DNA of 64,000 nt. Origin: Gaetbulibacter saemankumensis DSM 17032. GTDB lineage: Bacteria; Bacteroidota; Bacteroidia; Flavobacteriales; Flavobacteriaceae. The position numbers and the translations under genes are program-made. Positions 19,339 to 56,595 of this stretch are shown here, piece by piece. The notes under the pieces are model-generated. The model saw nothing but the letters and a program-made list of their open reading frames with translations. It was not told where the DNA came from and made no database searches. Each line of letters starts with the position of its first letter. Positions within the stretch are counted from its first letter, which is position 1. The stretch lies in assembly GCF_000425645.1 (NCBI RefSeq), contig NZ_AUDV01000006.1, forward strand, positions 1 to 64,000, in the 5' to 3' direction.

Positions 19339-19791
19339 ATGAACGCAAGCGCAGATACGAAAAATCAAGAAATAGTAAAAAGTGTATTTACTAACTTTTT
19401 AGAAAATAACGGGCATCGCAAAACACCCGAACGCTACGCTATACTACAAGAAATTTATAACAACACGGAGCATTTTGATATTGAATCTTTGTATCTCAAT
19501 ATGAAGAACAAAAAATACCGTGTATCTCGTGCTACACTTTATAACACTATAGAATTACTTCTGGAATGCGGTTTGGTTAGAAAACACCAGTTTGGTCAAA
19601 ATCAAGCGCATTACGAAAAATCATATTTCGATAGACAACACGATCATGTTATCCTAACTGATACGGGCGAAGTTATCGAATTCTGTGACCCTAGAATTCA
19701 ATCTATCAAAAAAACAATCGAAGAAGTATTCGACATCGAAATTAATAATCATTCTCTTTATTTCTACGGAAATAGAAAATCAAATAAATAA
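19339..19791 (+). CDS. Fur-family transcriptional regulator
   Basis: 150 residues. A winged-helix DNA-binding domain (about 15-85, with [19 protein letters not shown]) precedes a metal-binding dimerisation domain ([15 protein letters not shown] and NNHSLYFYG). H101 and H103 are likely metal ligands. The CxxC pairs that hold structural zinc in E. coli Fur are absent: only C77 and C116 remain. It probably represses iron or peroxide genes, though Fur, PerR and Zur cannot be told apart safely here. It lies between relA and purA (12 bases to purA), so it is likely co-transcribed with purA. Confidence 0.92.
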
Positions 19792-48778: not shown

Positions 48779-50251
48779 TTACCTGGAATAATTCGGTGAT
48801 TCTTTTGTTATAGCAACATCGTGTGGGTGACTTTCATTAATGCCACTAGCTGTAATTTTAACAAATCGCCCGGTTTCTTTTAATGTTTCAACATCCTTAG
48901 CACCACAATATCCCATACCTGCACGTAAACCACCTATAAACTGATGAATACTTTCATATAAATCACCTTTATAAGGTACACGCCCTACAATTCCTTCAGG
49001 TACTAATTTTTTAATGTCGTCTTCTACATCTTGGAAATAACGATCTTTACTACCTTCTTTCATGGCTTCAACAGATCCCATACCACGATAAGACTTAAAT
49101 TTACGTCCTTCGTAAATGATAGTTTCTCCAGGAGATTCTTTGGTTCCTGCTAATAAAGATCCTAACATGACAGAATCAGCACCAGCGGCGATAGCCTTTG
49201 GAATATCTCCTGTGTAGCGTATACCCCCATCAGCAATTACAGGTACTCCTGATCCTTTTATAGCAGCAGACACTTCTAAAACTGCAGAGAATTGAGGAAA
49301 ACCAACACCAGCAACAACACGCGTAGTACAGATAGACCCCGGGCCAATTCCAACTTTAACAGCATCGGCTCCAGCTTCCACTAAATATTTAGCCGCTTCA
49401 CCAGTTGCAATATTTCCAACAATTACGTCTAAATCAGGAAACTTAGCTTTTACTGCTTTTAATACATTTACCACACCTCTGGTATGACCATGAGCTGTAT
49501 CTATAACCACGGCATCAACTCCTGCGTTTACTAAAGCTTCAGCTCTTTCAACGGCATCAGCAGTTACACCTAAGGCAGCAGCCACACGTAAACGCCCAAA
49601 TTCATCTTTATTAGCGATTGGCTTTTGGCTAAGTTTTGTAATATCTCTAAATGTAATTAACCCTGAAAGTTTATAATTGTCATCTACAATAAGTAGTTTC
49701 TCAATTTTATGTTGCTGAAGAATAATTTCAGCATCTTTTAATGACGTTCCTACTGAAGCTGTTACTAGGTTTTCACCAGTCATCACTTCAACAATAGGAC
49801 GATTTTTATCATGTTCGAAACGTAAATCACGATTGGTAACAATACCTTTTAATGTACCATCTTCTGCAACAATTGGAATACCTCCAATACTATGCTCTGC
49901 CATACTTTGCTTCGCATCTAAAACAGTTGCTGTTAAAGGTAATGTTACAGGATCTAAAATCATACCACTTTCGGCACGTTTTACTCGTCTAACTTTTAAT
50001 GCCTGTGCTTCGATTGTCATGTTCTTATGTAACACACCAATTCCACCTTCCTGAGCCATAGCAATGGCCATTTTACTTTCGGTAACTGTATCCATTGCCG
50101 CCGAAATAATGGGAACATTAATAGTAATATTACGAGTAAATTTAGTTTGAATATTAACTTCGCGTGGAAGAACTTCTGAAAATGCGGGAACTAACAGGAC
50201 GTCGTCGTAGGTTAAACCCTCTCCTACAATTTTATTTTGATGTGCGATCAT
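48779..50251 (-). CDS. guaB: Inosine-5'-monophosphate dehydrogenase
   Basis: 490 residues, normal length. It oxidises IMP to XMP with NAD+, the first step to GMP. The TIM barrel carries TYDDVLLVP, the two CBS domains lie at about 98-205 ([25 protein letters not shown]), catalytic C308 is in GPGSICTTR, and the flap RYFQDVED and C-terminal [12 protein letters not shown] are intact. A TATATTTG promoter box is at 50277-50284 and a seven-base-arm inverted repeat lies in the short leader. Confidence 0.98.
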
Positions 50252-53172: not shown

Positions 53173-53661
53173 TTAACTTTTTTTCAAAAGCTGTGTAAAG
53201 ACAACAATTACTGATAATGAATAACTTAAAACCATTAAAATTCCAGATAACATAACAATATATTTCATCCAGAGCATACCGCTCCATAAAAAATACAACC
53301 CACCAAAAGTGAGAATAACCGATGTTAAAGGTTCTATCATAAGGAATAGTTTTAATCTACGATTTAGCTTGGTTAGAGAAACTAATACTCCAACAAGAAA
53401 GAAAATAATAGACATAGACAATATATGGTTATGCACTAAAGTAAGCATTTCCTGAGGGCTTTTTTTAAAATGCATCACCTCGGCATTTTCATCATTCTCA
53501 TTTCCCAAATATTGTTCTTCAATACCATTAGGGTTAGCAGATGATGTTTCTTCAACAAATAAAAGACCGGTAAAAAAACCAACCGACAAAACAATTAAAA
53601 ACGCTCCAATTAATAATTTAATTTCCTTTGGGAGCGTATATATTAATCCGTTTAATTGCAT
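53173..53661 (-). CDS. Four-helix integral membrane protein of unknown function
   Basis: 162 residues. Membrane segments at about 17-36, 78-96, 105-125 and 132-156; the loop at about 40-75 carries many acidic residues and probably faces the periplasm. Conserved-looking H77 and H79 (LVHNHIL) sit at the membrane edge of helix 2, which would suit heme or metal binding, though that is a guess. No family recognised. The start follows the FMN-binding gene's stop directly (no gap), so they are translationally coupled. Confidence 0.75.
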   Translation of the reverse strand: MQLNGLIYTLPKEIKLLIGAFLIVLSVGFFTGLLFVEETSSANPNGIEEQYLGNENDENAEVMHFKKSPQEMLTLVHNHILSMSIIFFLVGVLVSLTKLNRRLKLFLMIEPLTSVILTFGGLYFLWSGMLWMKYIVMLSGILMVLSYSLSVIVVFTQLLKKS

Positions 53662-54189
53662 CTATATTATATTATTTGAATGGAGTACTTTTAAAGACTG
53701 TAGTAAATCATTCATGGCATTAGTCATCGACCTTACAGATATGGTAGCTCCAGAGATAGCCATGATATTCTCACCATACTTTAAGGAATCATCCTGGTTT
53801 TTACCTATAAATTGTTTTAGCCAGCGAGCACTACCTATTTCTCCACCATATTCTTCTCTATAAACTAATACCTTCGATTTTTTAACTACTAAATCGGTAT
53901 CTAAAAGTACCAGATAATCGAATAAAGCTGTTTTACTTGGCGCCTGAGACACATAGGCATATCCTACAAGCTTATTTTCTACTTCAATTTTAAATAAATT
54001 ATCATTATTAAATTTCGATTTTACCTTGCTAGCTATAGCATTAGGAATTTTAAATTCGGTAAAACTGAAATCTTCAATCTCGAAAGTTTTGGTAATTTCC
54101 TTATCTATTTTTTTCTGAATATTATTTGGCAATCCGAATGCCATTAAAAACATACTAAAAACTAATAATATTACATGGTTTGTTTTCAT
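53662..54189 (-). CDS. FMN-binding domain protein (periplasmic, likely flavinylated)
   Basis: 175 residues. A signal peptide precedes an FMN-binding domain of the NqrC/RnfG type. The flavinylation motif is SGATIS at 146-151, with T149 as the expected attachment site; this is the kind of target modified by the FMN transferase ApbE. GYAYVSQAPSK and the EYGGEIGSARWLKQFIGK block lie in the same domain. No apbE gene is in the window. A consensus promoter ends four bases before the ATG, predicting a leaderless transcript. It is followed without gap by the 162-aa membrane protein. Confidence 0.87.
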   Translation of the reverse strand: MKTNHVILLVFSMFLMAFGLPNNIQKKIDKEITKTFEIEDFSFTEFKIPNAIASKVKSKFNNDNLFKIEVENKLVGYAYVSQAPSKTALFDYLVLLDTDLVVKKSKVLVYREEYGGEIGSARWLKQFIGKNQDDSLKYGENIMAISGATISVRSMTNAMNDLLQSLKVLHSNNII

Positions 54190-54193
54190 TCTA

Positions 54194-54223
54194 CAAAAGT
54201 ATTGCTTTTTATATTTATTACAA
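54194..54223 (-). promoter_or_regulatory. Promoter of the FMN-binding/4-TM gene pair
   Basis: Minus strand: TTG (54223-54221), 19 bases, TACTTTTG (54201-54194), an exact consensus. The start codon is at 54189. Confidence 0.78.
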
Positions 54224-54273
54224 GTACGATACCAAAGCTAGTTTTATAAAGCTTATTTTCTTCATCAAATGAA

Positions 54274-54318
54274 TAAAAACAATTATCCCCAGAATATTAT
54301 TCTAAGGATAATTGCTTT
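54274..54318 (-). terminator. Terminator of the porin gene
   Basis: CAATTATCC (54280-54288) and GGATAATTG (54306-54314) arms extend inward through AGAAT/ATTCT, with two G-T wobbles on the minus-strand RNA, giving a 16-pair stem followed by TTTTTA. Confidence 0.85.
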
Positions 54319-54385
54319 ATAAATTAACATCAATCGACATTATTATAACGATAATAATCTTCTATTAGACTGGTCTGATTTTAAA

Positions 54386-55564
54386 TTAGAACCAAACCCC
54401 AATACCGAAGTTAAGTCTGTTTGCTACATCATTACCTTCAAGGGCATTATCTCTAAACTGATAATCTCCTTTTAAAACTACACCTGGGGCAATGTGATAA
54501 CTTAAACCTGTGGTAATATCGGTACGATTGTACGCATCATTTCTCACTACACTTCCGGCGGTGTTAGCGTGCGTATCATACGCTTCATACCTTGCAAATG
54601 CAAATAAACGTTGTTGTTTTGTTTGTGGCAATAAATTATAGGCAGCCTCTGCATACCAGCCTTGTAAAGCACTACCCAAATCTCTACCTGTAGCATTGTT
54701 ATATGCCTCGGTTCCTGATAAAGAAGCATGAATGTACTGACCACGGGCCGTGAAACGTTGATAGGCGTAACGAGCATCAACCCCCACCATAGAAACTCCT
54801 ACCATAGAACCATCCAAATCATCGGCTCCATCTTCAGCTTGTGTATCTCCAAAATATCCTGAAAGACCTAAACGTAATCCCGGAATACCGTAATAATCTA
54901 ATTTAGCTGAAAATGTCGGACTATTAATGGTAGACTGTATACCTTTTTGACGACCGCCACGTAATCCATTCGATCCTTTCAAATAACCATTAATTCCGCC
55001 TTCACCATCTAATTCTGCAGATTTAAACCCATTAAATACATAGGCCTGATACCCTAAAGATAATTCATTAAAACGTCCAGTTACACCAACTCCTAATTCA
55101 CGCCAAGTTGTTGGAACAATAACGTTATCGGTAGCTGGTCTTTCTACACCATTAAAAGTTGTAGGCTCGTGAAATTCGTTAACTATACCCATTGGAACCA
55201 ACATTAAACCACCACGTAAACTCACATTCGAAGCGACTGCATAATTTACGAAAGCTTGTTCAATATATACTTCTTGAACATGCTCAAATTCTACTTCTGT
55301 TATAAACTGTGTTTTATCGTTAAACTTATAACCGAATAATAACACCAAACGTTGTACATCTAATTCTCCGTTTTGAGCTTCTGGTTGATTATAAGTCATC
55401 TCCCCATAACCACCTACGGTAATAGCTTTACCATAATTCCCAGATAATAATCGTTGGGCTGCATTAATTTGTTGTTGAGGATCGAAGGTAATAGAATCTT
55501 GTAAGGTTTGTGCACTCACAGCTAATGATCCTAAGAATAAAAAAAGTAAGGTTAGTTTTCTCAT
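54386..55564 (-). CDS. Outer-membrane porin (phosphate-selective porin O/P-like)
   Basis: 392 residues. Signal peptide ends at LAVSAQ (about residue 19). The mature protein alternates like a beta-barrel (AITVGGYGEMTYNQ, RLVLLFGYKF, ELGVGVTGRF, LFAFARYEAYD) and ends in an aromatic residue (FGIGVWF), as barrels recognised by BamA do. It resembles Bacteroidota porins annotated as phosphate-selective porins O and P, but ion preference cannot be read from sequence. It has an exact consensus promoter and lies upstream of the FMN-binding gene on the same strand, with its own terminator. Confidence 0.85.
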   Translation of the reverse strand: MRKLTLLFLFLGSLAVSAQTLQDSITFDPQQQINAAQRLLSGNYGKAITVGGYGEMTYNQPEAQNGELDVQRLVLLFGYKFNDKTQFITEVEFEHVQEVYIEQAFVNYAVASNVSLRGGLMLVPMGIVNEFHEPTTFNGVERPATDNVIVPTTWRELGVGVTGRFNELSLGYQAYVFNGFKSAELDGEGGINGYLKGSNGLRGGRQKGIQSTINSPTFSAKLDYYGIPGLRLGLSGYFGDTQAEDGADDLDGSMVGVSMVGVDARYAYQRFTARGQYIHASLSGTEAYNNATGRDLGSALQGWYAEAAYNLLPQTKQQRLFAFARYEAYDTHANTAGSVVRNDAYNRTDITTGLSYHIAPGVVLKGDYQFRDNALEGNDVANRLNFGIGVWF

Positions 55565-55612
55565 TTTTGCTTGTTAATTGATTTTATTTAGACTTAATAT
55601 AAATAATAAATT

Positions 55613-55635
55613 GTTTTACGCTGCAAAAGTAAAAC
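55613..55635. promoter_or_regulatory. Inverted repeat overlapping the porin promoter
   Basis: GTTTTAC (55613-55619) and GTAAAAC (55629-55635) are perfect seven-base arms nine bases apart, overlapping the -7 box of the porin gene. Such a site could bind a repressor. Confidence 0.4.
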
Positions 55636-55654
55636 ACTAAATGAGTTGAGCAAA
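55624..55654 (-). promoter_or_regulatory. Promoter of the porin gene
   Basis: Minus strand: TTTG (55654-55651), 19 bases, TACTTTTG (55631-55624), exact consensus. Predicted leader about 50 bases. Confidence 0.8.
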
Positions 55655-55731
55655 TTTTATTTAGATTAAATTTAAATAAAATTAAATAATTAACAATTTC
55701 GTCATATTAGCCACTAAAAAAGACCTTATTT

Positions 55732-56595
55732 CTAATGGTAAAACTTAAATATTTTAGAAGCCTCGTTATGAGCACTTTCAAAACTTAAAGCATTTAAATT
55801 ATTACACTTTTTAGAGGTAAAATAGGATAATAATTTTTCCGTGGGCATATTGCCGGTAAGTTCATTTTTCGCCATGGGACACCCACCAAAGCCTTGAATA
55901 GCGCCATCAAATCTTGTACACCCCGCCATAAAAGCTGCATCTACTTTCTCAAACCAGGAATCTGGAGTAGTATGCAAGTGCGCTCCAAATTCTATGTACT
56001 TGTATTTTGGGATTAAATTCGAAAATAAATAGTCGATAGTTTCAGAATTAGAGCTTCCAACCGTATCACTTAAAGATAATATTCGAACACCCATCTGACT
56101 TAAACGTTCAGTCCAATCTGCAACAATCTCCACATTCCATGGATCTCCATAAGGGTTTCCAAATCCCATAGAAATATAAACCACGACTTCCTTATTCACC
56201 CGATCTGCAATATTTAAAATTTCCTGAAGTGTAACAATAGATTGTGCAATGGTCTTATGGGTATTACGCATCTGAAAGTTTTCAGAAATTGAAAAAGGGT
56301 ATCCTAAATAATCTATGGCACTATGTTTAGAAGCCTCCTCTGCCCCTCGTGTATTGGCTATAATCGCCAATAATTTACTCGTAGTTGTACTTAAATCCAA
56401 ACGCGATAAAACCTCAGCCGTATCAACCATTTGCGGGATAGCCTTAGGTGATACAAAACTACCAAAATCAATAGTATCAAAACCTACACGCAATAAAGAT
56501 TGTATGTACTGTACCTTTTTCTCAGTTGGTATGAATTCACGAATGCCTTGCATAGCGTCACGAGGACATTCGATAATCTTAATAGGATTCGACAT
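55732..56595 (-). CDS. Hydroxymethylglutaryl-CoA lyase family enzyme
   Basis: 287 residues, HMGL-like TIM barrel. Visible: the catalytic PRDAMQ near the N-terminus, SFVSPKAIPQM, VYISMGFGNPYGDPWN, SLSDTVGSS, HLHTTPDSWFE and catalytic GGCP near the C-terminus (GFGGCPMAKNELTGNMPTE). The family cleaves HMG-CoA to acetyl-CoA and acetoacetate in leucine degradation. Identity is likely but some family members act on other substrates. A TTTG-N17-TATTTTTA promoter lies at 56619-56647. It stands alone, with no leucine genes beside it. Confidence 0.85.
   Translation of the reverse strand: MSNPIKIIECPRDAMQGIREFIPTEKKVQYIQSLLRVGFDTIDFGSFVSPKAIPQMVDTAEVLSRLDLSTTTSKLLAIIANTRGAEEASKHSAIDYLGYPFSISENFQMRNTHKTIAQSIVTLQEILNIADRVNKEVVVYISMGFGNPYGDPWNVEIVADWTERLSQMGVRILSLSDTVGSSNSETIDYLFSNLIPKYKYIEFGAHLHTTPDSWFEKVDAAFMAGCTRFDGAIQGFGGCPMAKNELTGNMPTEKLLSYFTSKKCNNLNALSFESAHNEASKIFKFYH

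Follow-up and report, generated by a model that had tools for sequence, protein, structure and literature searches.

The porin, FMN-binding and four-helix genes

The window, by which we mean the whole 64,000-nucleotide stretch of Gaetbulibacter saemankumensis DSM 17032 analysed here, carries three consecutive genes on the minus strand: a porin gene (54386..55564, 392 aa), an FMN_bind gene (53662..54189, 175 aa) and a gene for a four-transmembrane-helix (4-TM) inner-membrane protein, hereafter TM4 (53173..53661, 162 aa). All three are open reading frames, the second with a match to the FMN_bind domain (PF04205) and the third with no family matched in Pfam or NCBIfam. They lie in the order and at the places given in a first-pass annotation of this DNA, which had also described the last two as coupled without a gap; the stop codon of the FMN_bind gene and the start codon of TM4 do abut directly, with 0 bp between them. 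In most Flavobacteriaceae the trio is bordered by an HMGL-like gene (55732-56595 in the window) and an IMPDH gene (48779-50251), which indicates that its genomic position is old and stable.

The predicted structure of the first protein is a general-porin barrel (pLDDT 87.3), with Foldseek matches to OmpM1, OmpU, OmpF and OprP porins at E-values from 1e-14 to 1e-11 (best 1.1e-14), bearing out its earlier naming as an outer-membrane porin. Among 33 members of its family, Porin_O_P matches 12 and Porin_4 also 12. The conserved residues are E90, E92, E94, H95, E102-Q103-A104, N129 and H132-E133-P134; the glutamates E90, E92 and E94 occupy alternate positions of one strand and might face the pore lumen, which would favour cations. 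No paralogue of this porin was found in the genome of the window.

Conservation across Bacteroidota

One scan and one family search retrieved 107 further Flavobacteriaceae loci, some of them sharing a genome, and matches were present in 60 of 149 Flavobacteriaceae genomes (three of the 60 weak or broken). The FMN_bind gene precedes TM4 in 106 of the 107 loci, so that the association of the 162-aa family with FMN-binding neighbours, proposed earlier as a check, holds nearly everywhere, and in the 105 loci where the gap from stop to start was measured it always lies between -4 and +3 bp. The porin is part of the trio in 104 of the 107; of the three loci lacking the full set, two lie at contig ends (L070 and L096) and one is a real exception (L075, see below). 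Searching 296 genomes of the phylum with a profile recovered TM4 in families well outside Flavobacteriaceae, most of these copies having 28-37% identity to that of the window. Here the order porin, FMN_bind, TM4 is found in 20 of 21 loci, the exception being L155, in which a DUF6607 gene replaces the porin, and the TM4 residues H77, H79 and E110-P111 and the FMN_bind residue T149 are invariant in these distant families too. A plasmid search gave no match.

One genome (G099, 2.2 Mb) contains a decayed trio (L126:3700-4520), with TM4 pieces interrupted by stops and a 52-aa FMN_bind piece lying between the usual HMGL and IMPDH neighbours, which, judging from these remnants, suggests that the module has been lost there.

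A probable flavinylation cluster

The FMN_bind match is above the curated cut-off (E 2.5e-7, 31.7 versus 22 bits), and the protein contains the SGATIS motif noticed in the first pass, with its predicted flavinylation site at T149 (codon 53743-53745, minus strand). G147, A148, T149 and S151 show no variation across 106 aligned sequences or across 21 from distant families, and the residues kept in all 21 distant members are Y110, R111, E112, G115, Q126, G147-A148-T149 and S151. The N-terminus, as read from the sequence, is hydrophobic.

There is a single ApbE in the genome (C3:347560-348384), and ten distant loci have apbE inside the cluster, usually with overlapping or adjoining ends: downstream in six (L156, L157, L158, L160, L164 and L175), upstream in three (L161, L165 and L166) and, in L171, following a NusG_II gene. 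It is this presence of apbE in distant families that marks the trio as a flavinylation cluster. The NusG_II gene, located between TM4 and apbE (L171:5525-6256), was seen in one genome.

A putative membrane partner of no known family

TM4 was modelled as four long helices (AlphaFold with 27 aligned sequences, pLDDT 84.6), and the two histidines that had been pointed out in this four-helix protein, H77 (53431-53433, minus strand) and H79 (53425-53427, minus strand), are unchanged throughout 107 aligned sequences and in a further 21 from distant families. Both are transmembrane histidines of the helix spanning residues 69-95, invariant phylum-wide, as is looked for in b-type cytochromes. The residues kept in all 30 aligned members are G53, H77, H79, F87, E110, P111 and F119. 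Hydropathy and charges suggest that both termini are cytoplasmic, which would place H77 and H79 in helix 2 near the periplasmic face. Taken together, the adjacency of FMN_bind and TM4, the conservation of H77 and H79 and the apbE genes joining the cluster in distant families support the first-pass reading of the trio as a redox module.

A structure search of TM4 returned only generic four-helix bundles, a sequence search in the PDB yielded nothing useful, and from both TM4 appears without a recognisable redox-cofactor fold. It has a single HxH, with fewer histidines than the flavinylation cytochromes of the DUF4405 type. DUF2871 was considered as a relative on account of a shared HxH and weak matches by 2 of 30 members, and was discarded, as the DUF2871-like proteins of Bacteroidota fail to align with TM4 in profile comparison; these have an HTH motif and ferredoxin-like neighbours. 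We also came across a second small 4-TM family (L222, L224, L225 and L226), weakly DUF2871-like, with an invariant HTHIILVG and with ferredoxin-like and metal-sulfur assembly-like neighbours, for which no relation to TM4 was detectable.

These data also bear on whether the trio might simply be part of an ordinary NQR or RNF complex, or of another known flavinylation system, that went unrecognised. The FMN_bind protein shares its domain and an [S/T]GAT site with NqrC and RnfG, and it has a weak, distant likeness to RnfG (E 4.6e-5, far below the cut-off). However, an NqrC-like FMN_bind gene exists separately in the genome, near nqrA, no other nqr or rnf subunit genes were found in the trio or around it, and the Pfam models of NapH, MsrQ, PepSY, DsbD, NqrB and DUF4405 gave no match among 30 TM4 members, even up to an E-value of 1. 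We regard this explanation as very improbable.

Promoters and predicted Fur boxes

The porin gene is preceded by a promoter of the Bacteroidota -33/-7 type (TTG-N19-TACTTTTG, 55624..55653, minus strand), a pattern that recurs in 72 of the 74 sequences compared. On the same strand it is flanked by two nearly perfect matches to the Fur box of flavobacteria, absent from the first-pass annotation: box 1 (TTATTTAAATTTAATCTAAATAA, 55657..55679) just upstream of the -33 element, and box 2 (TTATTTATATTAAGTCTAAATAA, 55584..55606) between the -7 element and the porin start codon. The same arrangement is common to the porin promoters of Flavobacteriaceae, which have two dyads (TTATTTANANTNANTCTAAATAA), one just before -33 and one after -7. 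Of 74 such promoters, 73 have a best site with 0-1 mismatch and 68 a second site with at most two, while shuffled promoters and the promoters of IMPDH and HMGL mostly have 5-8 mismatches to the box. Among the porin promoters of distant families, 14 of 20 contain a site with at most three mismatches, compared with 2 of 860 control windows taken from these loci. The core of the box is identical to the one reported for Fur in Riemerella anatipestifer (ATTTAGAATTATTCTAAAT), which gel shifts (EMSA) support for hmuR and others (PMC5609570).

The presumed regulator of the module is the product of the only Fur-family gene of the genome by domain match (19408..19767, plus strand; PF01475, E 3.7e-27), which is not linked to the trio. 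The operator fits the published Fur box (PMC5609570); DtxR is a further candidate for its owner, given a DtxR-type gene near feoAB.

Within the genome of the window, sites with at most one mismatch lie mostly at iron genes. Apart from the two at the trio porin, they are found between hemA and an AraC gene that has hemH behind it, beside ferritin, at feoAB, ahead of a TonB receptor with PepSY_TM, and between nqrA and a T9SS plug gene (L207:3631-3653). Weaker sites occur at a multihaem cytochrome c gene (L208:3299-3321, 2 mismatches) and at an Fe-S assembly ATPase. Those at nqrA and at the multihaem cytochrome may hint at Fur control of the respiratory chain.

The FMN_bind-TM4 pair has an internal promoter (TTG-N19-TACTTTTG, 54194..54223, minus strand) that fits the same consensus and from which a nearly leaderless mRNA is predicted. 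It had been described as the pair's own exact promoter, which is fair, since TAnnTTTG precedes the FMN_bind gene in 76 of 104 sequences compared with 6.5 in shuffles. This promoter is without a Fur box in most genomes, so part of the expression of the pair may be Fur-independent.

Fur control alone would fit not only iron acquisition but also an iron-sparing respiratory module, in which a flavin protein would replace a haem cytochrome step, TM4 would pass quinol electrons through the FMN_bind protein to some other periplasmic oxidoreductase, and the porin would bring the substrate of the latter, iron being the signal and not the substrate. The Fur boxes at the porin promoters suit such a module, and the boxes ahead of nqrA and of the cytochrome c gene indicate that not every gene with a box is an uptake gene. 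Meheust et al. (2021; PMC8238504) have also suggested that flavinylation is advantageous where iron is scarce.

Variant loci

What weighs against the iron-sparing module is the company that FMN_bind and TM4 keep when separated from the porin, every such case being found in an iron or haem uptake locus. In L109 and L155 a DUF6607 gene takes the place of the porin, and the resulting DUF6607-FMN_bind-TM4 array faces a TonB receptor in the former and lies beside HmuY and a TonB receptor in the latter. Genome G438 has the two halves at separate places: at L219, DUF6607-FMN_bind faces a TonB receptor-HmuY pair, and at L075 an imelysin gene, an HTTM gene and a TonB receptor gene are followed by TM4. 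Boxes are present in the promoters of L109, L155 and L219, with a weaker one at L075. These variants put FMN_bind, TM4 or both directly with uptake genes (HmuY, TonB receptors, imelysin), and no dedicated oxidoreductase was found linked to the trio. An iron-sparing module thus seems to us rather unlikely, and the Fur boxes together with the haem and iron-uptake neighbours indicate iron acquisition.

The DUF6607 genes (L219:4646-5569, L155:6144-7070 and L109:2756-3682; PF20311 in the first two and a similar protein in L109) form an unnamed family that likely has a role in haem or iron uptake itself, since they are coupled to FMN_bind genes in the vicinity of TonB receptors and, in L219 and L155, of HmuY. 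The same three loci, all with a TonB receptor and two with HmuY, could be taken to mean that the FMN_bind-TM4 pair serves haem, reducing haem iron or extracting iron from haem in the periplasm, and that the porin replaces entry by TonB receptor, HmuY and DUF6607. The main form of the trio, however, has a general porin and no adjoining haem gene, and pores of the general-porin class are too narrow for haem in the solved relatives. A haem service of this kind we consider unlikely.

L075 invites another reading, as TM4 is there with a TonB receptor and without FMN_bind, although the latter is present elsewhere in the genome. TM4 might be a small protein of the inner membrane that carries iron or hands metal on, its HxH and E-P binding Fe(II) from the flavin reductase, with the FMN_bind protein drawing its electrons from elsewhere, e.g., NQR. 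The invariant membrane residues H77 and H79 and E110-P111 could indeed be metal ligands. Against this, nearly every genome has FMN_bind and TM4 coupled at the stop codon, which is what one would expect if the two were subunits of one complex. Moreover, a membrane electron carrier often comes as part of a flavinylation system itself (PMC8238504), and a box-controlled FeoB is already available in the genome. We therefore think it improbable that TM4 carries iron.

Proposed function

An iron role of the module is strongly supported, and iron is most likely its substrate, judging from the regulation and the neighbouring genes; one-electron reduction in the periplasm is the most likely chemistry, in view of FMN_bind, apbE and the gene coupling. 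We consequently favour, as the probable function, a Fur-repressed module that acquires iron by periplasmic reduction. More specifically, and here we see the case as evenly balanced, the trio would be an unnamed system present throughout Bacteroidota in which a dedicated porin of acidic character, a ferric (or haem) reductase flavinylated by ApbE and a membrane electron carrier of a new class, with four helices and a single HxH, form one Fur-controlled unit.

In such a system, Fur would leave both boxes when iron is short and the operon would be made. The porin would admit ferric (or haem or chelated) iron into the periplasm, where the FMN_bind protein, flavinylated on T149 by the only ApbE of the genome, would reduce it one electron at a time. 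TM4 would be its obligate inner-membrane partner, most likely relaying electrons from the (mena)quinol pool near the periplasmic HxH site, possibly with a haem b held between protomers or with a quinol site, and the ferrous iron would enter the cytoplasm through FeoB, whose gene has the same box. Iron as the substrate, flavinylation itself, the direction of the electrons, the role of the HxH and the use of FeoB are what we infer. Counting against this function are the passive nature of a porin channel, the scarcity of free ferric iron in seawater and, for TM4, the lack of a recognisable redox-cofactor fold and the smaller number of histidines noted above.

Relation to known systems

We would file the trio as flavinylation-based iron assimilation in a new form. 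It shares with the PepSY-like, MsrQ-like and DUF4405 flavinylation and iron-reduction systems (PMC8238504; PMC11334425) an FMN_bind protein flavinylated by ApbE (as predicted for the trio) with a membrane partner and, in some members, Fur control and iron-uptake neighbours. It differs in its partner, which has four transmembrane helices and one HxH and belongs to no known family, and in having a porin in the operon. Meheust et al. (2021; PMC8238504) distinguish five classes of membrane carrier; by sequence, TM4 belongs to none of these, nor to DUF4405 (PMC11334425), and porins are unmentioned in the texts of either work (2021 and 2024, respectively). FMN_bind is likewise tied to iron uptake in the P19/FTR1-associated assimilation system, which is without a known membrane electron carrier; neither P19 nor FTR1 was seen beside the trio, which has the porin and TM4 instead.

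A functional parallel is reductive inorganic iron uptake in cyanobacteria (porins, the ARTO reductase and FeoB; PMC7676907), with the porin entry, periplasmic ferric reduction and FeoB-type import that we propose for the trio, although the reductase there is a terminal oxidase and the one proposed here is a flavoprotein encoded in one operon with its 4-TM partner. The variant loci, with DUF6607-FMN_bind(-TM4) adjoining HmuY, a TonB receptor or both and with boxes of the same type, resemble the Hmu/Hfp haem uptake of Bacteroidota (HmuY-HmuR; PMC9331221), while the main form of the trio lacks HmuY and the term FMN appears nowhere in the published description of Hfp (PMC9331221). The trio also departs from NqrC and RnfG in lacking NQR or RNF partners. 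The earlier remark that no named system has such a composition agrees with our search, as neither the trio nor the combination of an FMN-binding protein, a porin and iron in Bacteroidota is described in the non-subscription literature that the search covered.

Bacteroidota, above all the marine Flavobacteriaceae, face scarce iron, and their reduction of iron outside the cytoplasm is hardly known. If the reading favoured here is true, a compact Fur-controlled module kept across the phylum would provide a testable answer, a new membrane electron carrier would be added to the few known for flavinylated proteins, and a function would be given to a nameless membrane protein family and to a porin family so far without a link to a substrate.
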